Assembly: GCA_947302945.1 (NCBI GenBank)
Contig: CAMYWZ010000004.1
Location: 1 to 16,686 of the forward strand
Direction: 5' to 3'
DNA from: an uncultured Bacillota bacterium
GTDB lineage: Bacteria; Bacillota; Clostridia; Peptostreptococcales; Anaerovoracaceae
Length of the DNA stretch: 16,686 nt
The translations under genes and the position numbers were made by a program. Under the pieces are notes generated by a model, which was not told the DNA's origin, ran no database searches, and saw only the letters and a list, made by a program, of their open reading frames with translations. Positions 1 to 15,195 of the stretch are shown here, one piece after another (within the stretch, counting starts at the first letter, position 1; the number at the start of each line of letters is the position of its first letter).

Positions 1-733
1 AAGCCTCGCCGCGCTGCACTATGGCGCCTACAAGGCCGCCTTCGCTGTGCTTTAGGGCCAGCTCCACGCTCTCGGAGATACGCCCCTCCGCGCCGGGCTT
101 TACGACTATGCGGTCCACGACTATGTCTATGCTGTGCTTGAAGGTCTTGGAAAGGCTGATCTCGTCCTCGCCGAGGGTCTTTATCTGGCCGTCGACGCGC
201 ACGCGGATGAAGCCCTCGCGCTGTATGCGCTCGAGGACCTTTTCGTGCATGCCCTTCTTCTGGCGCACCACGGGCGCCAGCACGGTGACCCTTGCGCCGT
301 CCCCTTTGTCCATGATGAGGCCGGCTATCTGGTCCACGCTCTGGCTGCTGATCTCGCGGCCGCAGACCGGGCAGTGAGGCACGCCTATGCGTGCGTAGAG
401 AAGCCTGAGGTAATCGTAAACTTCCGTGACGGTGCCGACGGTTGAGCGCGGGTTCTTGGAGGTGGTCTTCTGATCTATGGAAATTGCCGGCGAGAGGCCG
501 TCTATGGAGTCCACGTCCGGCTTGTCCACCTGGCCCAGAAACTGCCTTGCGTAGGCCGAAAGGCTCTCCACGTAGCGCCTCTGCCCTTCCGCATAGATCG
601 TATCGAAAGCCAGGCTGCTCTTTCCCGACCCCGAAAGCCCGGTTATGACCACCAGCTTGTCCCTCGGTATCGTAAGATCTATATTCTTTAGATTATGGGC
701 CCTCGCCCCCTTGATGACTAAGTCTTTCTGCAT
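1..733 (-). CDS. uvrA: UvrA, excinuclease ABC subunit A (N-terminal part; runs off the window)
   Basis: UvrA is the damage-sensing ATPase of nucleotide excision repair; it loads UvrB onto damaged DNA. The first 244 codons are visible and the rest lies left of base 1. The product begins [15 protein letters not shown], the usual UvrA start. It has a Walker A motif GLSGSGKSS at residues 32-40, the [20 protein letters not shown] segment at 47-66, and CPVCG at 120-124, the first half of a zinc module. The ATG at 731-733 is preceded by AAGGGAAG (about 742-749). In many bacteria uvrA directly follows uvrB; here a DUF559 gene and two structured repeats lie between them, and the uvrA ribosome binding site is immediately beside one repeat hairpin. 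No defect is visible in the part seen. Confidence 0.97.
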
Positions 734-750
734 CTTATACTTCCCTTCTG

Positions 751-795
751 CCTTCCCCTTCAGGGGAAGGTGTCTGCGTCAGCAGACGGATGAGG
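751..795. repeat. Double-hairpin palindromic repeat, left copy (inverted relative to the right copy)
   Basis: The first hairpin is CCTTCCCC (751-758), loop TTCA, GGGGAAGG (763-770). The second is GTCTGC (772-777), loop GTCA, GCAGAC (782-787). A tail GGATGAGG follows (788-795). The same layout occurs inverted at 1141-1182. The loop of the second hairpin contains the stop codon of the DUF559 gene (779-781, TGA on the minus strand), and the arm and tail encode its last residues (SSVC and neighbours). The outer edge abuts the uvrA ribosome binding site. The element resembles REP-like palindromes; I cannot see from one window whether it is dispersed in the genome. Confidence 0.85.
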
Positions 796-1135
796 CATTA
801 ATATGATTCAAAATGTCTTCACAGACACCCTCAAAGTTATTATTCACATCTGAATTGCTATATCTAAGCACTTTTATCCCTTTGTTCTCAAAAAATCTAT
901 CACGTTGAGTGTCTTTTTCTTTACCCTCTGATTGATAATGCTGCGATCCATCAAGTTCTATAGCTATATGTGCTTTTGCACAGTAAAAATCCACAATATA
1001 ATTTCCAATGACTTTTTGTCTGTTTACTGTTACAGATAAACTCTTCAAAAAATCGTACCATAGATGACGCTCTTCTTTTGTCATGTTTTTACGCAGATCT
1101 TGCGCATTTGGTGTTAACAATGGATTTCTGTTCAT
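779..1135 (-). CDS. DUF559 (Vsr-like, PD-(D/E)xK fold) endonuclease-domain protein, 118 aa
   Basis: This small protein matches the DUF559 family, which is related to the very-short-patch repair endonuclease Vsr and the restriction-endonuclease fold. Visible family features are the N-terminal [12 protein letters not shown] helix (19-30), [14 protein letters not shown] with Asp49, and IELDGSQHY with Glu60, Asp62 and His66, together the likely metal-binding site. No biochemical role is established for most members. The gene is strikingly AT-rich beside its GC-rich neighbours, which suggests transfer. It lies between two inverted double-hairpin repeats. The tail of the right repeat supplies GGATGAGG five bases before the ATG, a plausible ribosome binding site, and the left repeat supplies the final codons and the TGA. 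It sits in the same direction between uvrB and uvrA. Family call is firm; activity is inferred. Confidence 0.88.
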
Positions 1136-1140
1136 TGATA

Positions 1141-1182
1141 CCTCATCCGGCGCTTTGCGCCACCTTCCCCTGAAGGGGAAGG
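1141..1182. repeat. Double-hairpin palindromic repeat, right copy
   Basis: On the plus strand the order is tail CCTCATCC (1141-1148), hairpin GGCGC-TTT-GCGCC (1149-1161), one A, then hairpin CCTTCCCC (1163-1170), loop TGAA, GGGGAAGG (1175-1182). Read on the minus strand it matches the left copy base for base in the first hairpin and the tail, while the second hairpin has a different sequence that still pairs. On the minus strand the GAGG of the tail falls five bases upstream of the DUF559 ATG (1133-1135). Confidence 0.85.
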
Positions 1183-1201
1183 CATATATGTAACTATACT
1201 G

Positions 1202-3183
<1,982 letters not shown>

Positions 3184-3187
<4 letters not shown>

Positions 3188-3426
3188 GACAGCACCTCGT
3201 AGAGGCTTGCCGCGTCGTCCTTGCCGACGTGATCGGGGGTGGAGAGCACGCGGACCTTCATCTCGGACTTGCCGAAGGCGATGGTGATCTCGTCCCCCGG
3301 CTTTACGTCCTTGCCGGGCTTTGCCTCCTTGCCGTTGACGAATATCCTTGCGTCCTCGCAGGCATCGTGCGCCACGCTGCGCCTCTTGATAAGGCGCGAA
3401 ACCTTAAGGTATTTATCGACTCTCAT
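3184..3426 (-). CDS. rqcP: RNA-binding S4 domain protein, RqcP (YabO/Hsp15-like)
   Basis: The 80-residue product is a single S4 domain: [23 protein letters not shown], then the [19 protein letters not shown] segment typical of YabO. It closely resembles Bacillus RqcP, which works with RqcH on stalled 50S subunits to add C-terminal alanine tails to nascent chains in ribosome-associated quality control. The conserved basic residues near Arg2 and 14-KRR-16 are present. The gene overlaps uvrB by four bases. A promoter lies immediately upstream and there is no Shine-Dalgarno sequence before the ATG, so the message may be leaderless. The Hsp15/RqcP family call is strong; the RqcP role is by homology. 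Confidence 0.9.
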
Positions 3427-3435
3427 AATATATTG

Positions 3436-3464
3436 ATTGTATCACAAAACGCGCCCGTTTACAA
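3436..3464 (-). promoter_or_regulatory. Extended -10 promoter for the S4 gene-uvrB transcript
   Basis: On the minus strand, -35 TTGTAA (3459-3464), a 17-base spacer and -10 TACAAT (3436-3441) with a TG one base before it (extended -10). Only nine bases separate the -10 box from the ATG at 3426, so transcription would begin about two or three bases before the start codon. The -35 overlaps the terminator hairpin of the upstream operon. Confidence 0.55.
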
Positions 3465-3472
3465 CGGACGCG
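3446..3472 (-). terminator. Intrinsic terminator of the ECF transporter operon
   Basis: Read on the minus strand, arm CGCGTCCGTT (3472-3463), loop GTA, arm AACGGGCGCG (3459-3450), giving a ten-base-pair stem with one G-T wobble, then TTTTGTGAT. It begins about 20 bases after the stop of the S component gene. The T tract is short, so termination may be partial and allow read-through into the S4 gene and uvrB. Confidence 0.6.
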
Positions 3473-3491: not shown

Positions 3492-4190
3492 TCATACTCC
3501 GTATTTGAGTTTGACGCGCTGGAGCTTTTCGCCGAACGGGCGGCCGAGGACAAGAAGGAAGACGACGTTGGAGACTGCGTATCCTATGGTATAGGGAATC
3601 GCGGTCCCGAGGGCTGCCGCGTAGAGCTGCCAGCTGAAGCCCTCGCCGTACCAGAGGACTGTCCAGATGTCCATGATCATGGAGTACGCCACGCCGGCAA
3701 GCGCGCCGTAGACCGCCAGCGCCACCCTGCTCTTCCTGAGCGGCTTTCCCAGGTAGCCCGCGACGAGGCCTATCATGCCCCAGGCGAACATCTGGAAAGG
3801 AGTCCACGGACCCTGCCCGAACTGGAAGTTGGAGATGACCGCCGTTAGCGACCCTACCAAAAAGCCGGACTCGGGTCCTATCCATATGGCTGTGATTATG
3901 ACTATGGAAGTGATAGGCTTGAAGGCCGGTATCATCGAAAAGACCGCCCGTCCGATGACGGAAAGCGCTGTCATGACCGCGATTATAACCATCCTGCGGG
4001 TGCCCACGACCTTTTTGTCGAAGCTGGCGTAAAACAGCAGCATGGCGAAGATCAGGCAGACGACCGTGATCCACGCGTACGAGTTGTCAGGGAACACGAA
4101 GACCCCCGCTGCCACCGCGAGCGGAAACAGCAGGAAGGGCACCGCGACCCTTATCGTCTTCCTTAAGTTTTCGTTCTTTATCCTGATCAT
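3492..4190 (-). CDS. ECF transporter S component (substrate-binding membrane subunit), probably corrinoid
   Basis: S components bind the vitamin substrate within the membrane and are driven by the EcfT/EcfA module. The 232-residue product is very hydrophobic, with membrane segments near 14-33, 38-55, 66-85, 93-118, 132-150, 155-180 and 190-215. It carries the RRMVIIAVMTALSVIGR stretch (65-81) and GPWTPFQMFAWGMIGLVAG (127-145) typical of ECF S components. The ATG overlaps the ATPase stop as ATGA, with the fused ATPase and EcfT directly upstream, so this is a dedicated (group I) ECF system. Specificity cannot be read from the sequence; the cobalamin riboswitch on the operon suggests cobalamin or another corrinoid, as for CbrT-type systems. 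Confidence 0.88.
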   Translation of the reverse strand: MIRIKNENLRKTIRVAVPFLLFPLAVAAGVFVFPDNSYAWITVVCLIFAMLLFYASFDKKVVGTRRMVIIAVMTALSVIGRAVFSMIPAFKPITSIVIITAIWIGPESGFLVGSLTAVISNFQFGQGPWTPFQMFAWGMIGLVAGYLGKPLRKSRVALAVYGALAGVAYSMIMDIWTVLWYGEGFSWQLYAAALGTAIPYTIGYAVSNVVFLLVLGRPFGEKLQRVKLKYGV

Positions 4191-5806
4191 CCCTGCAGTC
4201 TGAGCGCCTGAATGGCGTCCTCGTGGGTTATGCAGCCGTGGAACCAGCCTCTGGTGAGGCGGTTGACCGCGGTGGTGTAGAAGTTGTTCTCGGAGAAGAA
4301 TTCCCTGGGTGCTCCTGTGGACGTGACCTCGCCCCTGAAGAACATGGCGCAGCGGTCCGCGGCCATGGCCGCGAATTCAACGTCATGCGTTACTATGACT
4401 ATGGTCATGCCGCCGTCCCTGAGCTTTTTGAGTATGCCAACGATGCGGGCGGCCGCGCTGGCGTCGATGCCCTTGGTCGGCTCGTCCAGCAGCAGGAGCC
4501 TTGGCTTGGTGGCAAGCACCTTCGCCAGCGCCACGAGCTGCTGCTCGCCGCCGGAAAGATCGTAGGGGTGCTTGTCCATGAGACTCTCGATGTCATAGGG
4601 CAGGTCCTTTGCCGCCTCCCCCGCGTCCGCAAGCTCCTCGCGGACGGTATTGCGCAGGAAGATGGTCTGAACGTCCTGCGGCAGCATCGTAAGGCAGTTC
4701 CTGTAGAGCTCCTGATTCCTGTATTCTTTAATGTCTTTTCCGAAGATGCGGACTTTGCCGCTGTAGGGCTTGTTGAGCCCTGCGACTGCGCCCAGACAGG
4801 TGGTCTTGCCGCTGCCGTTGCCGCCCAGGATGCAGAAGAGCTCGCCCTCGTGCACAGCCAGCTTGGTGCCGCGCAGCACGTCGTGGCCGTTCCGTCCGTA
4901 GCGGAACCAGACGTCGTCCATCTCCAATGCAAGCGGCGCGCTGCTCTCGGAGGACGGATCGAAGACCGGCTGTTTTTCGCAGCCGAAACCGCCTATCCAC
5001 TGCCTGCCTTCGCTTATTGTCAGAGGACACTCGCCCCTGCCGTCCATGGCGGAAAAGAGCCTGACGGTGCTGGGCATGGCCATCAGCAGATCCTGCCTTT
5101 CGCGGAGCCTTGCGCATACCTCGCGCGGTTTTCCGTAGTGCAGCAGCCTGCCGCCCCTGTCCATGATCAGCAGCCTGTTTGCCGCCGGGACCACCTCCTG
5201 GAGCCTGTGCTCCACGATGATCACCGTAAGTCCCATGTCGCTGTTGAGTTTCTGCACAGTGGTCAGAAAGTCCGACGCGGCTATGGGGTCCAGCTGGCTG
5301 GTGGGCTCGTCCAGTATCAGTATCCTGGGCTGCATCACCATGATCGAAGCCAGGTTCAGAAGCTGCTTCTGGCCGCCGGAAAGGTCCGCGACATCCATCT
5401 CGAACCAGTTTTCTATGTCGAAATAGCTGGCTATCTCCGATACTCTGCGCCTGATGACGTCCTGGGGATACCCCATGTTCTCAAGGCCGAAGGCCAGCTC
5501 GTGCCATACTTTGTCTGTTACTATCTGATGCTCCGGGCGCTGCATGACGAAGCCTATGGAGGCCGCCGCCGTCTTAGCGTCTATCTGACCAATGGGCACT
5601 CCGTCCAGAAGCACCTGCCCCGAAAGCTCGCCCGCAGGCGTGAGCTCCTTCTTCAGCATGCGGAGAAGCGTCGATTTGCCGCAGCCTGTCGGCCCGGAGA
5701 CCGCGACCAGATCCCCTTCCTCCACGCCGAAGCTGACGCCCTTTAAGGCGTCTTCAGTACCAAGCGTGTACCGAAAGCTCAGATCTCTGACTGTAAGGAT
5801 CTCCAC
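4187..5806 (-). CDS. ECF transporter ATPase with two fused ABC domains (EcfA-EcfA')
   Basis: This cytoplasmic subunit powers the ECF importer. One 539-residue chain holds both ATPases. Domain 1 has Walker A GPTGCGKS at 38-45, signature LSGGQ at 142-146 and Walker B ILILDEPT at 162-169. Domain 2 has GGNGSGKTT at 328-336, LSGGE at 417-421 and LLLLDEPT at 437-444. The chosen start is GTG (5804-5806), with AAAGGAGG eight bases upstream. A longer in-frame extension to 6013 exists but only mirrors the EcfT gene in another frame and has no ABC homology. The gene overlaps ecfT by 28 bases at its start and the S component gene by four bases at its end. No catalytic defect is seen. Confidence 0.93.
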   Translation of the reverse strand: MEILTVRDLSFRYTLGTEDALKGVSFGVEEGDLVAVSGPTGCGKSTLLRMLKKELTPAGELSGQVLLDGVPIGQIDAKTAAASIGFVMQRPEHQIVTDKVWHELAFGLENMGYPQDVIRRRVSEIASYFDIENWFEMDVADLSGGQKQLLNLASIMVMQPRILILDEPTSQLDPIAASDFLTTVQKLNSDMGLTVIIVEHRLQEVVPAANRLLIMDRGGRLLHYGKPREVCARLRERQDLLMAMPSTVRLFSAMDGRGECPLTISEGRQWIGGFGCEKQPVFDPSSESSAPLALEMDDVWFRYGRNGHDVLRGTKLAVHEGELFCILGGNGSGKTTCLGAVAGLNKPYSGKVRIFGKDIKEYRNQELYRNCLTMLPQDVQTIFLRNTVREELADAGEAAKDLPYDIESLMDKHPYDLSGGEQQLVALAKVLATKPRLLLLDEPTKGIDASAAARIVGILKKLRDGGMTIVIVTHDVEFAAMAADRCAMFFRGEVTSTGAPREFFSENNFYTTAVNRLTRGWFHGCITHEDAIQALRLQG

Positions 5807-6657
5807 CTTGCTTCCTCCTTTAACTGAAGATATACGGGTATAGCTCCGAGAAGTGCGTAAGCCGCGTAGCAGACAACGGCTGCCGGCGATGCTCCCGGAG
5901 TTACTATCTGAGGATACCACACGTAGGCCAGTTTCCCGAGGCCTATGGCAAGGACTGCCGCCAGCCCGAGGACCGCCGTGGCAGCCATCAGAGCCTTGTC
6001 GCTCTTCTGCCATCCGAATATCGAGAAGCGGCTGCGCCTTCCGACGCCGTAGCCGCGCGCCGTCATGCTGTCCGCGGTTATGATGCCGTTCTCAAGAGCC
6101 CAGGAGACCATCACTGACATTATCCTCATGCCTCCCCGGATCTTGTCGATCGCGTTGTCTTCCTTGTAAAGCCCGGTCACCTGCTGCGCCTGGCGTATCT
6201 TCTTTATCTGCTGCCCGTAGAGCGGTATGTACCTGAGCGCCATGGACAGTATCAGCGCTATTTTAGGCGACACGCTGCCGAAGACGTAGAGCAGCTTGTC
6301 TGTGGTCATGATGCTGTTGAAGCTGGAGAACCACACCACCGTGGAGCATATGATCAGCCCTATCGTAAGGCCGTAGCGCAGAGCCTCGAGCGTTACCGGG
6401 TTGTCGTTGAGGATGAACAGCACCGTGACGCCCTTGTGCACGAAGAGCGGATTGACTATCATGCTGATGACCGGGAATACGGCAAAAGGCAGCAGTTTTT
6501 TGAGCGCGCCAGCCCCATCCTTGGCCATGCGGAACGCAATGCCGAAAAACAGCGATATGCACACCAGCACGGGGTTGGTGCAGAACATCACCGGCACTAT
6601 CACGAAGAGGTAATAGATGAATACCGCTATTGGATTGTGGTCCTTGAAACTCTTCAA
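5779..6657 (-). CDS. EcfT-family transmembrane coupling subunit (CbiQ-like)
   Basis: EcfT links the S component to the ATPases in the membrane. The 292-residue product has membrane segments near 10-45, 52-82, 95-112, 125-146, and two more after 220. The cytoplasmic coupling region includes SMALRYIPLYG (138-148) and SMTARGYG (197-204), the conserved ARG-containing coupling motif. The start is TTG (6655-6657), one base after the TAA of the preceding gene, with GGAAAG just upstream as a possible ribosome binding site; no in-frame ATG lies nearby. A TTG start and this spacing imply coupling to translation of the upstream gene. The 3' end contains the ribosome binding site of the ATPase gene. Confidence 0.92.
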   Translation of the reverse strand: MKSFKDHNPIAVFIYYLFVIVPVMFCTNPVLVCISLFFGIAFRMAKDGAGALKKLLPFAVFPVISMIVNPLFVHKGVTVLFILNDNPVTLEALRYGLTIGLIICSTVVWFSSFNSIMTTDKLLYVFGSVSPKIALILSMALRYIPLYGQQIKKIRQAQQVTGLYKEDNAIDKIRGGMRIMSVMVSWALENGIITADSMTARGYGVGRRSRFSIFGWQKSDKALMAATAVLGLAAVLAIGLGKLAYVWYPQIVTPGASPAAVVCYAAYALLGAIPVYLQLKEEARWRSLQSEI

Positions 6658-6658
6658 T

Positions 6659-8278
6659 TTACTTTCCGTTGTACTCGTTGCCTATGTCTTTGCCGAGGTC
6701 CGTGGTGTACAGCCACTCCACGAAGTCCCCCTCGGAAAGCACGTACTCGTCCGCGTTGACGCTTGCGAATTCCCCGTTGACTCTGTACATCCAGCCGGAC
6801 AGATCCCCATAATCAAGCTCGTAGATGTTTGCTATGCCGGCTATGTAGCCGCCGCGGTTCTCTATCTGTATGGAATTCTTCCTGACCGCGGAGATCAGCT
6901 GGTCCAGAGCGGTCTGCCCCTTGCTGACAACGATCTCCGTCCTTGCCAGAACTATGCCGTCAGCCGGAATGTGAGCCGCCTTGCCGGCGACCGTAGCCGC
7001 GCTTATGTATATCTCGGTCTTTATGGGGTCGGTGATCGCTCCTCCGCTCCCGTAGTAGTCCGAGGGTCTTTCGATGTTTATGAACCTTATGCCCGCCGCA
7101 GCCACAGCCGCGACGATCAGCACGAACGCGTAGGATTTCCAGCTGCGCTTTTTAAGAAGCAGCAGGATGATGCATGCGATGACAGCCGCCGCTGCCGTGA
7201 TGCCGTAGAGCCAGGGCTTCAGGCTCCTGGCCTGCCCGCCCTGATTTACGGGATCAGTCCCCGGATCGTCCGGATCTGCCGGATCCGTCTGGCCGCCGGA
7301 GGGCTGCTTTACAGGCCTTTCCGCGTGAGGCTCGGAGAAGCTTCCGAACACGTACAGGCTGCCCTTCCCTTTGAGCATCATGTCGAAGCTCACCAGAGAA
7401 TACAGCGTCTGGACCGTGGCGGAGCTGTTGGCAGCCGTCCCGACCGTGTGAGCGTACTGCCCCGGAGCGGTTTTAAAGCTGTCGAGTATGTCAAGTATGG
7501 TCTTCCCGCCCTTGATGAAGCGCGCGTCCCCGCGGCAGTCTATGCTGAGGCTGCTGAGGGCAACCAAAACCTGGGCCGTGCTCTCGGCGTTTTCATCTCC
7601 GAAGGACGCGAAGTATCCGCTGTCTTTCTGGCGCAGGGACAGAAGCTCCACGCCTTTGTCGGCCGCGGCCTTCACCTTTTCCTGCGAATAATACGGGGCA
7701 AGCGTCTGAAGCGCCATGGCGGTGACGTCCACGTCGCCGTTGTCGCCCATGACGGCCCAGCCGCCGTCGGGAAGCTGGAGGGCCAGGATCTCGTCTATGA
7801 CGCTTTCCGCCGTGTGCGAACTGCTCTTCGCCCCGTTGCTTAAAACGTGCAGGCCGTATATCCAGGTCATGATGCCGCCTGCGCCTGTGGCTTCTTCCGC
7901 CGCCTTGTCTATGTAGCTGCTCTTGCTGCCGAGCGCCTGAAGTATGAGTGCCGCCTTGAGCCTTGTCGAAGCGCTTTTTTCGCTTATGGTCGGAGCGTAC
8001 TTTTCGTAGGCGGCGCGGTATTCGGAGAAATCCAGCTCCCCCGGATATTGCTGCCGCAGGCTCAGAATGAACCATTCCTCGTTCGAGCCGGCGTGGTCCG
8101 CGTAGTACCAGACCAGCTCCTGAAGATCCTTTGCCCCTGCGCTTTCCATGCAGGCGGCAAAGATGTCTTCGATCAGCGTTTCAGGGCTTTCATCCGCAGC
8201 AAAACAATGTCCCGGGAAAACCAGGGACATTGTTAATGCCAATAATACGATTATTGCTTTTTTCAGCGTTTTGATCAC
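6659..8278 (-). CDS. Intrinsic-factor-like membrane protein: alpha/alpha-barrel (prenyltransferase/squalene-oxidase repeat) domain, TM hairpin, DUF4430 domain
   Basis: This 539-residue protein starts with a signal peptide (LKKAIIVLLALTMSLVFPG, probable cleavage after CFA at 25-27). Residues about 40-305 form helical repeats of the prenyltransferase/squalene-oxidase type, for example LQLPDGGWAVMGDNGDVDVT (167-186) and SGYFASFGDENAESTAQVLV (220-239). An Asp/Pro-rich linker (328-349) leads to two membrane segments (about 356-376 and 382-400) joined by the basic loop KKRSWK. DUF4430, the transcobalamin C-terminal-like domain, occupies about 421-527 with SGWMYRVNGEF at 494-504. Both soluble domains should face outward. 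The same alpha plus beta pair makes up intrinsic factor and transcobalamin. The start is GTG, overlapping the upstream TGA as GTGA. Corrinoid binding is inferred from architecture and the riboswitch. Confidence 0.9.
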   Translation of the reverse strand: MIKTLKKAIIVLLALTMSLVFPGHCFAADESPETLIEDIFAACMESAGAKDLQELVWYYADHAGSNEEWFILSLRQQYPGELDFSEYRAAYEKYAPTISEKSASTRLKAALILQALGSKSSYIDKAAEEATGAGGIMTWIYGLHVLSNGAKSSSHTAESVIDEILALQLPDGGWAVMGDNGDVDVTAMALQTLAPYYSQEKVKAAADKGVELLSLRQKDSGYFASFGDENAESTAQVLVALSSLSIDCRGDARFIKGGKTILDILDSFKTAPGQYAHTVGTAANSSATVQTLYSLVSFDMMLKGKGSLYVFGSFSEPHAERPVKQPSGGQTDPADPDDPGTDPVNQGGQARSLKPWLYGITAAAAVIACIILLLLKKRSWKSYAFVLIVAAVAAAGIRFINIERPSDYYGSGGAITDPIKTEIYISAATVAGKAAHIPADGIVLARTEIVVSKGQTALDQLISAVRKNSIQIENRGGYIAGIANIYELDYGDLSGWMYRVNGEFASVNADEYVLSEGDFVEWLYTTDLGKDIGNEYNGK

Positions 8279-8985
8279 TTCTTGACGGTGATCTTCTGAG
8301 CGGAGACGGTATAGATGGCGTCGGTGTCGATGGCTACTATCCTGTAGATACCGTTCTTAAGAGTGATGGTGGCATTGCCGTCCTCACCTGTGGTAACACC
8401 GCTGTCAACGAGGTTGCCCTTGCTGTTGATGTAGCAGATCTTCGCTCCCTTAAGCGGCTGGAGCTTGGCGTTCCAGTTGGCATCGAAGCCCATGTACTGC
8501 ACGTTTACGTTGACCTTGTCGGCAGCTGCTTCCGCGTTAAGTATGATGTACACGTCGGAGAAGTTCTTTGCGTCCTTGTAGACAAAGACGTCTACTCTGT
8601 CGCCGGCCTTGACGGGATCGGTAAGGCCCATGGACATTGCGCCATTGACGTAGTAGCCGTAAGAACCGCCGTTCTCGATGCCCCAGAGCTTGGTGATCGA
8701 GTCGCCCCACTCTGTCTTGGCGGTCGTGAATCCGGCTTCGCCGTCAGCAAACCAGTTGGCGTGCACGGCTTTGATGACTTCGCCTACGGTGGTGCCCTCG
8801 GCGGGGATCTCCAGAGCCTTTGCGGCTATGAAGCTTCCGTCCTTAGCCTTGCCGAGCTCTGCTTCTACGGTAAGGGTGACGTAAGCTGCGTTTGCGGGGT
8901 CAGTATCCTTGACGCCGCATCCTGCGAGCACGAGGACCATGGCAAGGACCATGACCAGGCTCACGAGTCTGAAACTCTTTTTCAT
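8275..8985 (-). CDS. DUF4430 lipoprotein, putative corrinoid-binding surface protein
   Basis: The first gene of the riboswitch-controlled operon encodes a 236-residue lipoprotein. It has a basic N-terminus, a hydrophobic stretch and lipobox VLAGC with Cys23 for lipid attachment. Residues about 36-137 fit DUF4430, the domain related to the C-terminal half of transcobalamin and intrinsic factor (TTVGEVIKAV 65-74, GGSYGYYVNGAMSMGL 106-121, GDRVDVFVY 128-136). Residues about 140-236 look like a beta-sandwich carboxypeptidase-regulatory-like or Ig-like module (VTTGEDGNATITLKNGIYRI, 197-216). I chose the ATG at 8983-8985 because GGAGG lies five bases upstream and the signal peptide begins there; the in-frame upstream codons to 9051 lie in the riboswitch terminator. 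Ligand binding is not proven. Confidence 0.9.
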   Translation of the reverse strand: MKKSFRLVSLVMVLAMVLVLAGCGVKDTDPANAAYVTLTVEAELGKAKDGSFIAAKALEIPAEGTTVGEVIKAVHANWFADGEAGFTTAKTEWGDSITKLWGIENGGSYGYYVNGAMSMGLTDPVKAGDRVDVFVYKDAKNFSDVYIILNAEAAADKVNVNVQYMGFDANWNAKLQPLKGAKICYINSKGNLVDSGVTTGEDGNATITLKNGIYRIVAIDTDAIYTVSAQKITVKK

Positions 8986-8998
8986 ACTATCCTCCATG

Positions 8999-9034
8999 AA
9001 AGAAATAACGGCCACTGCAGCTGCAGCGGCCGTT
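8999..9034 (-). terminator. Riboswitch expression-platform terminator hairpin
   Basis: On the minus strand, AACGGCCGCTGCAG (9034-9021) is followed directly by CTGCAGTGGCCGTT (9020-9007), a 14-base inverted repeat with one G-T wobble (the centre must form the loop), then ATTTCTTT. It lies between the cobalamin aptamer and the GGAGG of the lipoprotein gene, where a ligand-controlled terminator would be expected. Confidence 0.65.
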
Positions 9035-9067
9035 TTCCTCTGTGCATACAATGATCCGATCGTCTTG

Positions 9068-9256
9068 AGCCAAGCAGGTCTTCTGACTTGCGCCTAACGG
9101 ATATCCGGCGGATCTTCTGCCTTCTCGGGCGATAAGCCCAATGGCATTCAGAAGACCCTTCAGCGCTTACAGCGGCGGTCCCGTCCGCGATTCACACGCG
9201 GTTCCCTATTATTTCCTCCGGCCCGGTCCGTGAACTTTCCGGAAAGAACACTTGGT
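9068..9256 (-). promoter_or_regulatory. Cobalamin riboswitch aptamer
   Basis: Read on the minus strand, the conserved pieces come in order: AATAGGGAACCGCGTGTGAA (about 9210-9191), then GGGACCGCCGCTGTAAG (about 9182-9166, the conserved internal GCCACTG-like box), a peripheral hairpin built on GTCTTCTG/CAGAAGAT, and the B12 box AAGTCAGAAGACCTGCTTGG (about 9090-9071). CCAAG at 9255-9251 can pair with CTTGG at 9074-9070 to close P1. The family senses adenosyl- or other cobalamins and usually represses uptake genes when ligand is abundant. A terminator hairpin follows, so control is probably by premature termination. Confidence 0.92.
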
Positions 9257-9278
9257 GTGCAATATTTTACTATTTTTG

Positions 9279-9307
9279 ATTTTATCACCTATTATTTTGC
9301 CGGTCAA
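9279..9307 (-). promoter_or_regulatory. Promoter of the corrinoid-uptake operon
   Basis: On the minus strand: -35 TTGACC (9302-9307), a 17-base spacer and extended -10 TGATAAAAT (hexamer TAAAAT at 9279-9284). The predicted start near 9272 lies about 16 bases before the P1 stem of the riboswitch, giving a leader of about 287 bases before the lipoprotein ATG. Confidence 0.8.
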
Positions 9308-9394: not shown

Positions 9395-9499
9395 TTAGAG
9401 AATGTATCCGCAGATAACGTATGCTATCGAGGACGCGATGGTCACGATCGGGAACACCAGCAGGCCCCACTTGAAGATCCACTTCGGGCTCTCCTGCAT
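9395..9499 (-). pseudogene. Small hydrophobic reading frame (34 aa), probable 3' remnant of a membrane protein gene
   Basis: The frame reads MQESPKWIFKWGLLVFPIV and continues through TIASSIAYVICGYIL to TAA; residues about 10-33 would form one membrane helix. It has a downstream terminator of its own but no Shine-Dalgarno sequence before the ATG (9497-9499) and no promoter, because the sequence upstream on this strand is antisense to a sensor-kinase fragment. I therefore read it as the tail of a longer gene whose 5' part was lost near 9500. It could instead be a complete small membrane peptide. I do not recognise the family. Confidence 0.4.
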
Positions 9500-10931: not shown

Positions 10932-12818
10932 CTATGGTTCAGTCTTAAGCTTCCTGCCGCCGAAGCGCTTCGCGAAGAATTCCTGACGCCTCTTCTTTGC
11001 AGCCAGGCGCTCCGAAAGATCCCTTGCGCCTACTCCGTAGACCAGCCACAGTATTATTCCCGATACTATCATTATGAACACCGTCGAGGCGCAGCGCCTG
11101 CCGGAGGCGTTCACGTTGTAGCCGTACAGGCCCTCGTCCATGGTCATGGACTGGATGACCATCGCGTAGGTCTTGCCGTACTTGCTGGCAAAGGTGGCGG
11201 ACATGTCGTACTCGGTGAACAGCGCGTTGAAGTTGAGCGCGAACACCGCCAGCACGCTCGGGAGGATTATCGGAAGCTTCACCCTCAGGAAGGTCCTTAC
11301 AGGCCCGGACCCGAGGTTTTTAGCCGCGTCCTCCAGCTCCGTGTCTATCGAGTAGAATGCCGCCTTTATCATCCTGAGGCTGAACGGGAGCTTCGTGACC
11401 ACGTAAGCCATGATTATCAGAAGCTTGACGTTTTCCGCGTAGTACAGGTTGGTGTTTGCAACGTACCACACGTCTGTGCTGTTGAAGTATGTGCGGTACG
11501 AGTAGCAGATGAGTATTGTAGGCAGCAGCCAGGGGAAGAGCAGCGCGTACTCGAGGAAGGTGCCGCTCTTCTTGTGCTTTGAGATGTAATTGCAGGCAAC
11601 GACCACGATGACGCAGGCCAGAGCGGCTGCCAGCGCCGCAAGGACGAAGCTCATCTTTATGCCGCCCAGGGTGTCCTCATTGGAGAACACGCCTGAAATG
11701 GCGCCCTCGCGGGTCTTGTAGGTGCCCCTTGAGGTGAGGAACTCGTAGTCCTCGGTGCCGAAGAAATTGATCATCGTCCAGCCTGAAAAATCAAGCCGCT
11801 TCATCCTGATGGCCGTGTAGCTCTGGAAGCTGAATATTATTATCATGACCACAGGCGTCATATAGATTATGAACAGCACGTAGGCATATATATGGGCCAG
11901 CACGTTCGCGACAGGATTGTTGATCTTCTGCTTCTGGAGCTTTGCCTTGGTCTTGGAGACCGAAAGATAATGTCCCTTGCGCTCGTAAGCTGTCAGCACC
12001 GTCAAAAGTATGATGGTGAACAGCGCTAGTATGATGGATAAGAGCGCGGCCCTTGCCTGCGGGAAGGATTCGTCCGCTGTGGAGCTGCCTGCCAGCCTTA
12101 CTATCTCCGGGTTGATGGAGTCATAGCCCAGGAGAGTAGGAGATGACATGGCGCACAGTCCCGTGATGAATGTCATAACCGTGAGCGAGAAAAGCGTAGG
12201 TATGAGCGTTGGCATTACGACCTTGAGCAGCACCTTGAAAGGATTGGCGCCCATGTTGCGCGCCGCCTCTACTGTGTTGTAGTCTATGCCCCTTATGGCG
12301 TTCCTGAGGAACAGCATGTGGTTGCTGGTGCAGGCAAACGTCATCGTGAAGACGACCGCGCCGAAGCCCGTGAACCAGGTCTTTTCAAGGCCGGGGAAGG
12401 CATTGGTAAGCAGCGGCGTGAGTATTCCGTCGTTGGCGTAAAGGAACATGTAGCCGGTTACCAGCGCGACGCCCGAATAGATCATCGTGGTCATGTAGCC
12501 CATACGCAGTATCTTCGCGCCCTTGATCTCAAAGTACTCCGTGAGGAGCACTATGGATATGCCCACGATGTTTACTGTTATTACGAGTATCACAGCCAGC
12601 TTGAGGGAGTTCCATACGTACTGCTTCATGTTTCCGGCAAGGAAGAAGCGTATGACCGCGAATGGATCCGGGTCTCCTGTGGCCGTCTTCTCCGTGAAGA
12701 TGCTGGTGAGCGTGTTCCAGCAAGGCACGACCATGAATCCCAGGAACAGATAGGCAAAGAACACCAGGCCTATCACCCTGAAAACAAAGGTCGAGTCTAT
12801 GCGTTTTTCATTCAGCAT
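10932..12818 (-). CDS. ABC transporter permease with two fused membrane domains (FbpB/AfuB-like)
   Basis: This 628-residue membrane protein carries two copies of the binding-protein-dependent permease domain. The first spans about 65-280 with the ATPase-contact loop EAARNMGANPFKVLLKVVMP (184-203). The second spans about 385-600 with EDAAKNLGSGPVRTFLRVKLP (496-516). Such double permeases occur in the ferric iron, hexose-phosphate, thiamine and 2-aminoethylphosphonate importers. I chose the ATG at 12816-12818: GGAGG lies six bases upstream, and the longer in-frame extension to 12875 has no ribosome binding site and runs through the read-through tail of the ATPase gene. Codons near 570 (NVNASGRRCAS) show no defect. 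The substrate is not determined. Confidence 0.92.
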   Translation of the reverse strand: MLNEKRIDSTFVFRVIGLVFFAYLFLGFMVVPCWNTLTSIFTEKTATGDPDPFAVIRFFLAGNMKQYVWNSLKLAVILVITVNIVGISIVLLTEYFEIKGAKILRMGYMTTMIYSGVALVTGYMFLYANDGILTPLLTNAFPGLEKTWFTGFGAVVFTMTFACTSNHMLFLRNAIRGIDYNTVEAARNMGANPFKVLLKVVMPTLIPTLFSLTVMTFITGLCAMSSPTLLGYDSINPEIVRLAGSSTADESFPQARAALLSIILALFTIILLTVLTAYERKGHYLSVSKTKAKLQKQKINNPVANVLAHIYAYVLFIIYMTPVVMIIIFSFQSYTAIRMKRLDFSGWTMINFFGTEDYEFLTSRGTYKTREGAISGVFSNEDTLGGIKMSFVLAALAAALACVIVVVACNYISKHKKSGTFLEYALLFPWLLPTILICYSYRTYFNSTDVWYVANTNLYYAENVKLLIIMAYVVTKLPFSLRMIKAAFYSIDTELEDAAKNLGSGPVRTFLRVKLPIILPSVLAVFALNFNALFTEYDMSATFASKYGKTYAMVIQSMTMDEGLYGYNVNASGRRCASTVFIMIVSGIILWLVYGVGARDLSERLAAKKRRQEFFAKRFGGRKLKTEP

Positions 12819-12819
12819 G

Positions 12820-12894
12820 TTACTCCTCCTTCGGCGCGTAGCTAATGAAGTCAGAGTTGTAGAAGCTGACTGCAAAAGACTCGCCTTCGGTTTA
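12820..12894 (-). other. Premature in-frame TAA and the orphaned C-terminal tail of the ABC ATPase
   Basis: The ATPase frame meets TAA at 12894-12892. The next 23 codons continue in the same frame as TEGESFAVSFYNSDFISYAP then KEE, ending at a second TAA (12822-12820) one base before the permease ATG. The tail looks like the last strands of the C-terminal TOBE-like domain, in which NPY-x-EGE is a common pattern, so codon 317 was probably TAT or TAC (Tyr). Possibilities are a point mutation, a sequencing error or stop-codon read-through. Confidence 0.75.
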
Positions 12895-13842
12895 GGGGTT
12901 GCGTCCGTCGTTCTTTTCTATGATGCGGAGCGTCTGCCCGAAGGCTTTTACGGTATATTTGATGTAGAGCCCGTAGTACTCGGAGGACTCTACTTTGGCG
13001 TCGAATACAAAGTGGTCCGCGTCGGTCTGCCTGTTCACATGCAGCCTTTCGAGGCGTATGTAGTGATGCCAGGAAGTGTCCAGCCCGGCGCCCTTTTCAT
13101 TCAGCGCCGCGACAATACCGTCCTCCAGGCGGTTTATGTCGCCTATGAAGTTGCATACGAATTCGGTCGCGGAATGGTTGTAGATCTCGTTCGGAGTGCC
13201 TATCTGCTCTATGTACCCTTTGTTGAATACCGCTATGCGGTCGGAGAGCGTAAGGGCTTCTTCCTGGTCGTGCGTAACGTATATGGACGTTATGCCGAAC
13301 TCCTTCTGCATCTTTTTAAGCTCGTTGCGCAGCTGCACCCTGAGCTTGGCGTCCAGGTTGGACAGCGGCTCGTCAAGACATATGATGCTGGGGCTGGTGA
13401 CGAGGGCTCTTGCTATGGCCACCCTCTGCTGCTGTCCGCCGGACAGCTGCGACACAGCCTTTTCAAGCTGTTCGTCGGTGAGGTCCACCTTTTTCGCGAT
13501 ATCCCTCACTTTTTTGTCTATCTCTTCTTTTTTGAGCTTCTGTATCTTGAGGCCGAACGCTATGTTGTCGTAGACCGTCATCGTGGGAAACAGCGCGTAG
13601 CTCTGGAACACTATGCCTATATTGCGCTTTTCTATTGGAACGCGGGTAATGTCCCTGTCTTTCATGAAGACTGTGCCCGAGGCGGGAGAAATGAATCCGG
13701 TGATCGTGCGCAGCGTGGTCGTCTTGCCGCAGCCCGACGGCCCCAGGAACGTGAAGAATTCGCCCTCTTTGACGTGAACGTTTATGTCGTGAAGGGCGGT
13801 GAAGTCTCCGAATTTAACGACTATATCATTAAGCTTTATCAT
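12892..13842 (-). CDS. ABC transporter ATP-binding protein (FbpC/PotA class), truncated by an in-frame stop
   Basis: This is the cytoplasmic ATPase of the importer. The 316-residue product has Walker A GPSGCGKT (34-41), Q-loop Gln80, signature LSGGQ (133-137), Walker B IICLDE (153-158) and switch His191. After about 230 comes the regulatory TOBE-type region. Translation stops at codon 317, but the frame stays open for 23 more family-like codons (see 12820-12894), so the encoded protein lacks its last beta strands. The nucleotide-binding part is intact, so partial function is possible. The start is ATG with AAAGG nine bases or so upstream, just after a terminator-like hairpin that separates it from the binding-protein gene. 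Confidence 0.93.
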   Translation of the reverse strand: MIKLNDIVVKFGDFTALHDINVHVKEGEFFTFLGPSGCGKTTTLRTITGFISPASGTVFMKDRDITRVPIEKRNIGIVFQSYALFPTMTVYDNIAFGLKIQKLKKEEIDKKVRDIAKKVDLTDEQLEKAVSQLSGGQQQRVAIARALVTSPSIICLDEPLSNLDAKLRVQLRNELKKMQKEFGITSIYVTHDQEEALTLSDRIAVFNKGYIEQIGTPNEIYNHSATEFVCNFIGDINRLEDGIVAALNEKGAGLDTSWHHYIRLERLHVNRQTDADHFVFDAKVESSEYYGLYIKYTVKAFGQTLRIIEKNDGRNP

Positions 13843-13857
13843 AACGTCTGACCTTTC

Positions 13858-13888
13858 AAAAAAGGCGAGCCCTTAAAAAGGGCCCGCC
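13858..13888 (-). terminator. Intercistronic terminator/attenuator between the binding-protein and ATPase genes
   Basis: On the minus strand, GGCGGGCCCTT (13888-13878), loop TTT, AAGGGCTCGCC (13874-13864), an 11-base-pair stem with one G-T wobble, then TTTTTT (13863-13858). It starts 12 bases after the binding-protein stop and ends 15 bases before the ATPase ATG. No promoter is evident between, so it probably sets a high binding-protein to transporter ratio by partial termination or by protecting the upstream message. Confidence 0.85.
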
Positions 13889-13900
13889 GTAAATGCCTTA

Positions 13901-15130
13901 TTACTTCTTAGCCTGTGTGAGTGTTGCCCAGTTGAGGTTAGCCCAGTCGGGTTCTGCCGGTGCAGCATTCTGATCTGCCCAGTAGAATCCCAGGTTGGTC
14001 ATGATGTTGGTCCACTCTGCGGAGTGGGCTGCAACGTACTGAGCGTAGTTCATGTCTGTGCCTGCGACCTTCTTGAGCGAGAAGTTGTCCAGGGTGTAGA
14101 TGGACGGTGTCTCTTTGTAGACCTTGCTTGCAGCTTCGGTGTTGCAGGGGAAGGTATCCCACTGCTCTGCCCATGCAGCCTGAGCTTCGGCTCCGCCGAA
14201 CCACTCTGCGAATGCCTTTACCTGAAGCGTGTCAGCCTCGGAACGGCCTGCCTTGTCGAGGATGCCGAGGTACTCGGCGATGTAGTAGGTGCCGTCTTCT
14301 ATCTCGACGATCTTGCAGGTGTCGGCGGTGACGGGCTTGTCGGACTTGGTGGAAGCTTCATCCAGCTTTCCGTAGAAAGCGCTGGAGTAGAACGTAGCCA
14401 CCTGGACGTCGCCCTTGTTGAGGGGGTCGAAGCCGTAGGAGTCGCCGGTGAATTTGCCGTTCGCGCAGTACTTCCACAGGGTCTTCCATCCGTCGATGGA
14501 GATGCCGCCTGCCGGGGAGCTGGGATCGGTGAACGCGTAGAGCATGGCGTTGTTGATGTTGGAGTTGGTGGTTCCGCCGACCTTGCCCTGCCTGTACCAG
14601 GTGTAGCCGCAGTCGACTATGTCAGCCCAGTGCTTGAACTTGAGAGCCTTGCCGTTGGTGCCGACAGCGTCGTTCCTGTAGATCATAAGAACGTTCTGCA
14701 CTACCAGGCCGTATGCCTTGCCGTCGTACTTGTAGTTGCCGACCTTGGAAGCCCATGCAGGTGTCCAGTCCACGAGCTTGAGGTTCTCGTAGTTGCCGCC
14801 TATGACCTGGCCCCAGCGGGTCTCGTTAAGACCGAAGAGTATGTCTCCGTCCTTGTTCTCGTTGGCCTGCTGAACTGCCTTGTCGTCTCCCTTGTAGACG
14901 GTGCTGTCGTCCAGAGAGATCTTGAATCCGTTCTTTTCCGCATAGGCTTTGAACCATTCGACACGCGGGGTATCGTTGGAGTTCGAATAGATGCGGATGA
15001 CGTAATCCTTGTTTGCCGTTACTGTGTTCTGGGTGTTGGTCTGAGCGTTGTTCGTCTTTCCGCCGTTGTTGCATGCGGCAAGGCCGATGACCATTGCAAG
15101 CGCCAGAACGATAACCAATACTTTCTTCAT
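13901..15130 (-). CDS. ABC transporter substrate-binding lipoprotein (FbpA/AfuA-like family)
   Basis: This 409-residue protein would be lipid-anchored outside the membrane and would deliver substrate to the permease. Signal peptide KKVLVIVLALAMVIGLAAC has a lipobox LAAC with Cys20, followed by a Thr/Asn-rich linker to about 42. The mature part begins YVIRIYSNSNDTPRVEWF and contains the C-lobe segment GTYYIAEYLGILDKAG with AFAEWFGGAEAQAAWAE, typical of the iron/thiamine/hexose-phosphate binding-protein group. The chosen ATG (15128-15130) has AGGAGG five to six bases upstream; the longer frame to 15190 is leader RNA. It is first in the operon, directly after a strong promoter. The substrate cannot be assigned from sequence. 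Confidence 0.92.
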   Translation of the reverse strand: MKKVLVIVLALAMVIGLAACNNGGKTNNAQTNTQNTVTANKDYVIRIYSNSNDTPRVEWFKAYAEKNGFKISLDDSTVYKGDDKAVQQANENKDGDILFGLNETRWGQVIGGNYENLKLVDWTPAWASKVGNYKYDGKAYGLVVQNVLMIYRNDAVGTNGKALKFKHWADIVDCGYTWYRQGKVGGTTNSNINNAMLYAFTDPSSPAGGISIDGWKTLWKYCANGKFTGDSYGFDPLNKGDVQVATFYSSAFYGKLDEASTKSDKPVTADTCKIVEIEDGTYYIAEYLGILDKAGRSEADTLQVKAFAEWFGGAEAQAAWAEQWDTFPCNTEAASKVYKETPSIYTLDNFSLKKVAGTDMNYAQYVAAHSAEWTNIMTNLGFYWADQNAAPAEPDWANLNWATLTQAKK

Positions 15131-15195
15131 TTTTTCCTCCTGTTGAAATAACTTATATTCTGCGGGAACTGCCCCGCTTATTGCCTGCATTATTG

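Follow-up and report, generated by a model that had tools for sequence, protein, structure and literature searches.

A candidate corrinoid capture-and-import operon under a cobalamin riboswitch in an uncultured Clostridia bacterium

Described B12 systems and the layout of the operon

In 2007 Burroughs et al. (PMC1796856) described Gram-positive surface proteins that combine an alpha/alpha toroid with a transcobalamin-type beta-grasp domain, often accompanied by a paralogous second one; in the parts of their paper considered here the genes lie in operons with a CbiO-like ATPase and a CbiQ-like protein, a role in scavenging B12 or its precursors is proposed, the bearers are usually without B12 synthesis, and the animal B12 carriers are proposed to have been acquired from low-GC Gram-positives. 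Here we describe a five-gene operon that very probably encodes a corrinoid (B12-family) capture-and-import system, located on a stretch of 16,686 nucleotides (hereafter the window) that is one contig, CAMYWZ010000004.1, of the 1.38-Mb, 72%-complete assembly GCA_947302945.1 of an uncultured Bacillota bacterium of the family Anaerovoracaceae. The operon encodes a lipoprotein (LIP), a barrel protein (BAR) and an energy-coupling factor (ECF) transporter composed of EcfT, a double EcfA and an S component. It resembles the 2007 class in its toroid-beta-grasp fusion and its CbiO/CbiQ-like operon genes; the core idea was already predicted in outline at that time, and the system is a newly found member of that predicted kind, to which the riboswitch linkage, the CbrT-type S component, the predicted folds and the predicted membrane layout are now added. 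An initial sequence-only reading of the window had proposed the same interpretation, which is upheld in kind, although with less novelty than was presented. The text of PMC1796856 that was consulted uses none of the words riboswitch, B12 element, lipoprotein and energy-coupling, nor did we meet the S component or the membrane hairpin in the parts of it considered here, and, unlike the bearers described there, this genus seems to have B12 synthesis. In the parts of the open-licence literature considered here we found no experimental test of these proteins, no study linking them to riboswitches or CbrT-type S components, and no biochemical test of the bacterial root of the animal carriers proposed in 2007.

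Intrinsic factor, haptocorrin and transcobalamin, the animal carriers, share with BAR the order of barrel and then beta domain and are its best fold matches in the PDB; BAR differs from them in a hairpin between the two domains that is predicted to tie it to the membrane, and in its link to a transporter rather than to an endocytic receptor. BtuG-type proteins are Gram-negative, feed the TonB-dependent BtuB and belong to domain families other than those encountered here, so that of the two counterparts named in the sequence-only reading the kinship with animal carriers stands by fold, while that with BtuG is one of analogy. What is common to them and to the role proposed here is that gut bacteria capture B12 at their surface, as described for BtuG, BtuH and DUF4465 proteins of Bacteroides in the parts considered of PMC6143338, PMC8941943, PMC13398666 and PMC12751083. 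PDB entry 3u7z (RUMGNA_00854 of Ruminococcus gnavus, named a putative metal-binding protein, with calcium sites mentioned in a passage of PMC3975891) matches the beta domains of both LIP and BAR and is, unlike BAR, a lone domain with a chain of about 96 residues and no barrel. ECF-CbrT of Lactobacillus delbrueckii (6FNP), shown to take up cobalamin and cobinamide according to the part of PMC5997447 used here, is alike in ECF architecture and supplies the nearest solved relative of the S component; the same source has CbrT share one ECF module with other S components, whereas in this operon the module is encoded with its own S, both ATPases form a single fused protein, and a pair of surface proteins comes in addition.

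The five minus-strand genes overlap or abut and form one operon, in which a promoter-like site, a riboswitch and a terminator precede the genes and a second terminator follows them (Table 1). The riboswitch aptamer, the sole Rfam match at gathering score in the whole window, covers model positions 1-189 (gathering threshold 31.5 bits), and the terminator lies directly 3' of it, followed by GGAGG and the first ATG at 8985, where LIP starts. Read from the sequence, LIP and BAR are joined by a GTGA overlap (the lipoprotein stop and a GTG start at 8278), BAR and EcfT are separated by a one-base gap at 6658, the GTG start of EcfA at 5806 produces a 28-base overlap with EcfT, and EcfA and S share an ATGA overlap, with S starting at 4190; the promoter-like site, riboswitch and five coupled genes of the sequence-only reading are present as read, every listed overlap being exact. 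Riboswitches that halt transcription upon ligand binding are usually built in this way, with an aptamer and then a terminator ahead of the first gene, and because the same arrangement is seen here we infer that at low cellular corrinoid the riboswitch would let transcription through the terminator, and that at high corrinoid the operon would be shut off.

Table 1. Features of the operon, with positions in the window
Feature	Position	Strand	Remarks
Sigma-70-like promoter, TTGACC-17-TAAAAT	9279..9307	-	10/12 consensus; basis is the consensus match alone
Cobalamin riboswitch aptamer, RF00174	9056..9270	-	96.3 bits, E 2.4e-23, full length
Intrinsic terminator, probably serving the riboswitch as expression platform	9007..9034	-	12-pair stem and T-rich tail; fold z -4.56
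LIP, lipoprotein, 236 aa: transcobalamin-type beta domain and C-terminal beta sandwich (predicted fold)	8275..8985	-	
BAR, 539 aa: signal peptide, alpha/alpha barrel, transmembrane hairpin, DUF4430 beta-grasp domain	6659..8278	-	
BAR alpha/alpha barrel	about 7364-8185	-	
BAR transmembrane hairpin, KKRSWKS turn	about 7088-7219	-	
BAR DUF4430 beta-grasp domain	about 6698-7036	-	
EcfT, membrane-spanning coupling subunit of the CbiQ family, 292 aa	5779..6657	-	PF02361 E 4.8e-11
Double EcfA ATPase, about 539 aa	4187..5806	-	PF00005 in two stretches; TIGR04520 above cut-off; GTG start
S component, CbrT-like, 232 aa	3492..4190	-	PF12822 ECF_trnsprt E 1.7e-11, 44.8 bits
Intrinsic terminator, operon end	3450..3472	-	10-pair stem and TTTTGTGATA

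Surface proteins with carrier-like predicted folds

BAR was expected from the sequence-only reading to be a membrane protein joining a barrel to a DUF4430 domain, and a Pfam DUF4430 match (E 4.7e-16), a predicted barrel and a membrane hairpin are all found in it, together with squalene-cyclase and prenyltransferase toroid matches below threshold. It combines both features of the 2007 class, the DUF4430/transcobalamin-type beta-grasp domain and its fusion to an alpha/alpha toroid, and its predicted structure has the two-domain barrel and beta fold of the intrinsic factor and transcobalamin carriers; transcobalamins are themselves described as bearing a C-terminal DUF4430 domain in a passage of PMC4350170. 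The 15 best PDB chains (Foldseek ranks 1-15) are all animal B12 carriers, with both domains covered. Among these comparisons, 2pmv aligns across model residues 26-528 with a different relative placement of the domains, the beta domain superimposes on 5no0 at 2.2 A, and identity to the animal carriers is about 10-18%. This kinship surfaced through fold comparison and not through sequence profiles: a PDB search with the DUF4430-part profile gave no B12 carrier at E <= 10, and one with the profile of whole BAR gave none at E <= 1, the matches of the latter being squalene and terpene cyclases. Two histidines, H144 and H277, are near-invariant (in at least 95% of 66 sequences) and are candidate ligands.

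LIP carries a lipobox, LAGC, within MKKSFRLVSLVMVLAMVLVLAGCG, and its N-terminal half is predicted to adopt the transcobalamin beta-domain fold (residues about 30-141, window about 8563-8898), so that structure prediction places both surface proteins with the B12 carriers, as had been anticipated. The name DUF4430 lipoprotein given to it at the outset holds for the lipobox and, by predicted fold, for the transcobalamin-type domain, but not for the Pfam family: none of the 28 LIP family members scanned, that of the window included, matches DUF4430, a comparison by hhalign returned a probability of 1.9%, and we ruled out this assignment on sequence grounds. The LIP sequence profile likewise has no meaningful match in the PDB.

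Conservation of the operon and of its riboswitch

Conservation was surveyed in the best 80 of 253 confirmed BAR relatives from a scan of genome contigs, with neighbouring genes sought by tblastn on the strand of BAR and no farther than 8 kb from it, and with riboswitches called either by the Rfam models RF00174 and RF01689 or by two covariance models of our own, R1 and R2, which replaced a too-strict motif scan (GGGAA and GCCACTG) and were built from 13 and 9 sites, respectively, these seed sites matching by construction. Gene starts in the relatives were chosen by script, so that anchor counts from them are rough. All five genes are kept in 67 of the 80 (LIP, EcfT, EcfA and S near BAR); six of the 13 incomplete loci reach a contig end in or beside the operon (L033, L034, L086, L100, L106 and L111), and seven are without a detected part despite some flank (L063, L071, L079, L083, L104, L108 and L109). 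L063 has the riboswitch, LIP and BAR with no EcfT, EcfA or S detected within 10 kb, and its surface pair may partner a transporter encoded elsewhere.

A cobalamin-class riboswitch lies upstream in 66 of the 76 testable relatives; in 64 of these its start is no more than 1.2 kb ahead of an operon gene, and in L056 and L104 the distance is 1.5-1.6 kb; none was found at ten testable loci (L037, L041, L042, L047, L057, L064, L083, L086, L090 and L111), and four lie too close to a contig end for a call (L034, L065, L100 and L106). The co-occurrence looked for after the sequence-only reading is found in this pairing of the five-gene order with the riboswitch. All 60 R1 matches in the 1.4 Mb searched are on the operon strand and no more than 1.7 kb upstream of an operon gene, where 13 of the 60 are seeds and the allowed upstream space is very roughly 10% of the survey; a single R2 match of 56 is on the opposite strand (L050, E 0.024). 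By Rfam alone at gathering score, which is independent of R1 and R2, 25 of the 51 loci scanned are positive for the cobalamin class, a set made up of 44 loci (25 positive) and seven (none positive) chosen because nothing had previously been found there. A search of the genomes behind 42 of the 80 loci yielded an RF00174 match in 32, a figure kept apart from the locus counts. In three loci, L082, L099 and L112, a riboswitch precedes LIP-BAR and a second one separates BAR from EcfT; judging from this arrangement, the halves of the system can be separate transcripts.

The wider class was sampled with 118 genomes drawn evenly, of which 55 contain DUF4430, in 136 listed stretches (two of these rows fall under the cut-off). 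At least 44 of the 136, in 23 genomes, have a same-strand RF00174 match within 15 kb upstream, as compared with 0.69 expected from genome sizes, while none lies downstream of a thiamine pyrophosphate (TPP) riboswitch among the 150 TPP matches listed, the same number as for RF00174; the riboswitch-linked counts are lower bounds, and several stretches may share a protein or operon and are not independent. This suggests that in many cases an annotation as corrinoid-linked would be appropriate for the DUF4430 domains of this class. The gene arrangement varies among distant loci: barrel and DUF4430 occupy separate adjacent genes beside EcfT/EcfA in L122 and L123, DUF4430 genes adjoin ECF genes with no barrel detected in L120 and L121, L124 has a 2,772-aa barrel/DUF4430 protein with a separate DUF4430 gene and T, A and S, and L119 has split barrel and DUF4430 genes with no EcfT or S detected. 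R2 has an upstream match in L119, L120, L121 and L123, and no R1 or R2 riboswitch was found at L117, L122, L124, L125 and L126.

The transporter, its ligand and neighbouring loci

The ECF set is complete, with EcfT, two ATPase domains and S, and the Pfam matches agree with the subunits named from sequence. The best PDB match of S is 6fnp_A (E 1.6e-10 as a single sequence and 1.2e-18 as a 16-sequence profile), a 182-residue chain of the ECF-CbrT entry that, from its size, we take to be CbrT. The membership of EcfT and EcfA in the CbiQ and CbiO families, the cbi/cob genes of the genus and a weak CbiM match (E 0.0011) in one of 16 S family members would also suit a CbiMNQO-type importer of cobalt (or nickel), with a riboswitch that merely reflects the cobalt need of B12 synthesis. 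The window S, however, matches CbiM neither in Pfam at E <= 0.01 nor in NCBIfam at E <= 0.1, which speaks against cobalt, and is nearest to CbrT; EcfT scores 26.8 bits against a CbiQ equivalog cut-off of 111.8; and two surface proteins with the fold of B12 carriers would be left without a role. We rejected the cobalt-transporter reading on the ground that the window S is not CbiM, and regard transport of the metal as most improbable.

Another vitamin, such as riboflavin or folate, seems an even poorer candidate, with the surface proteins then serving adhesion or cell-wall binding. Such a transporter would fit the window S passing the Pfam PF07155 ECF-type riboflavin model (42.9 bits, cut-off 26.7), weak NCBIfam matches of S members to the FolT family (14/16; the window S far under the cut-off) and the riboflavin family (7/16), and the position of some relatives within open frames that are 1,000-3,000 aa long or longer. 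Against this, among solved structures the S profile is closer to 6fnp_A than to RibU (2.1e-5), and we take the PF07155 score as reflecting general S-component likeness, the PDB and riboswitch evidence favouring CbrT. Relatives with riboswitches for other vitamins, which had been named beforehand as evidence that would count against a corrinoid system, were looked for: comparison of the 51 loci with the whole of Rfam gave no TPP, flavin mononucleotide or folate riboswitch and none for any other vitamin, the sole non-cobalamin riboswitch in them being of the c-di-GMP-I class and lying about 7 kb away from the L110 operon, and both the prevalence of the cobalamin class and the TPP control point the same way.

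For a corrinoid importer, the following mode of action is proposed. LIP, through its transcobalamin-type beta domain, and BAR would bind corrinoid on the outer face, the barrel and beta domain of BAR both lying outside and being tied to the membrane by the helical hairpin; BAR would close its two domains on the corrinoid, as intrinsic factor and transcobalamin do, the ligand would be handed to the CbrT-like S, and EcfT with the double EcfA would turn S over using ATP. To our knowledge, ECF systems are thought to function without extracellular binding proteins, and an ECF transporter equipped with a dedicated receptor outside the cell would therefore be a new working mode. Here the receptor might be a clamp of two proteins, comprising one barrel and a pair of transcobalamin-type beta domains, which would pick up corrinoid and then dock on S, a proposal for and against which we find the case evenly balanced; in some relatives the clamp domains are spread over other gene arrangements. 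If it is correct, the ancestor from which animal intrinsic factor and transcobalamin descend would have living bacterial relatives in LIP and BAR. B12 capture by gut Gram-positives is only partly known, according to the portion of the review PMC6977713 considered here, and the operon offers a compact, riboswitch-tagged and widespread protein set for testing both this capture and the bacterial root of the animal carriers.

Which corrinoid is imported bears on the biology of the genus, which probably makes corrinoids besides importing them, because cbi/cob genes are present: CbiC occurs in nine of 11 genus genomes, and one contig of genome G005 (98% complete) contains cbiC, cbiD, cbiF, cbiJ, cbiET, cobB, cbiB and cobQ, all over their cut-offs, with CobD-like and BtuC-like proteins just or well under theirs. 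B12-binding domains are matched in all 11, the window's own genome included, and gut Firmicutes often encode the cobamide pathway, as stated in a part of PMC6977713. Own synthesis together with import fits salvage or uptake of foreign cobamides. Because these bacteria probably make their own corrinoid ring, the imported ligand could be precursors or foreign cobamides (cobinamide, or forms with other lower ligands) for remodelling rather than B12, a variant compatible with corrinoid import in general that we hold tentatively, as a real but lesser possibility. The acceptance of both cobalamin and cobinamide by CbrT of L. delbrueckii (PMC5997447, in part) is in its favour; the present evidence does not separate the ligands, and cobalamin riboswitches respond to several corrinoids, as reported in a section of PMC9600662.

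Two further riboswitch loci were observed. At L168:3574-4928 (G005:C7) a cobalamin riboswitch of G005 (G005:C7:36573-36766) is followed by a 371-aa protein with a sub-threshold match to NEAT, an iron-transport-associated domain (E 5.1e-5), and by large family-less open reading frames (ORFs), several of which may be on the wrong strand, the ORF choice in this region being mechanical; this NEAT-like locus may be a further surface system linked to corrinoids. In the window's own genome, another cobalamin riboswitch, a weak one of 32.1 bits, lies at 568-794 of L118 (G000:C195), a 3.3-kb contig on which the two main ORFs are on the opposite strand and match no Pfam family.

Within the window, the minus strand downstream of the operon (2-3426) encodes an S4-domain protein and then ORFs resembling UvrB, a DUF559-like protein and UvrA, these three by eye. 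On the other side, 10932-15190 (minus strand) holds a binding-protein-dependent ATP-binding cassette (ABC) importer with a double permease, an ATPase (both assigned by eye) and an SBP_bac_8 protein, adjoining HAD and LUD-domain genes, and a possible 34-aa hydrophobic peptide (MQESPKWIFKWGLLVFPIVTIASSIAYVICGYIL, ORF end) is encoded at 9395-9498 on the minus strand, between the LUD-domain gene and the riboswitch.

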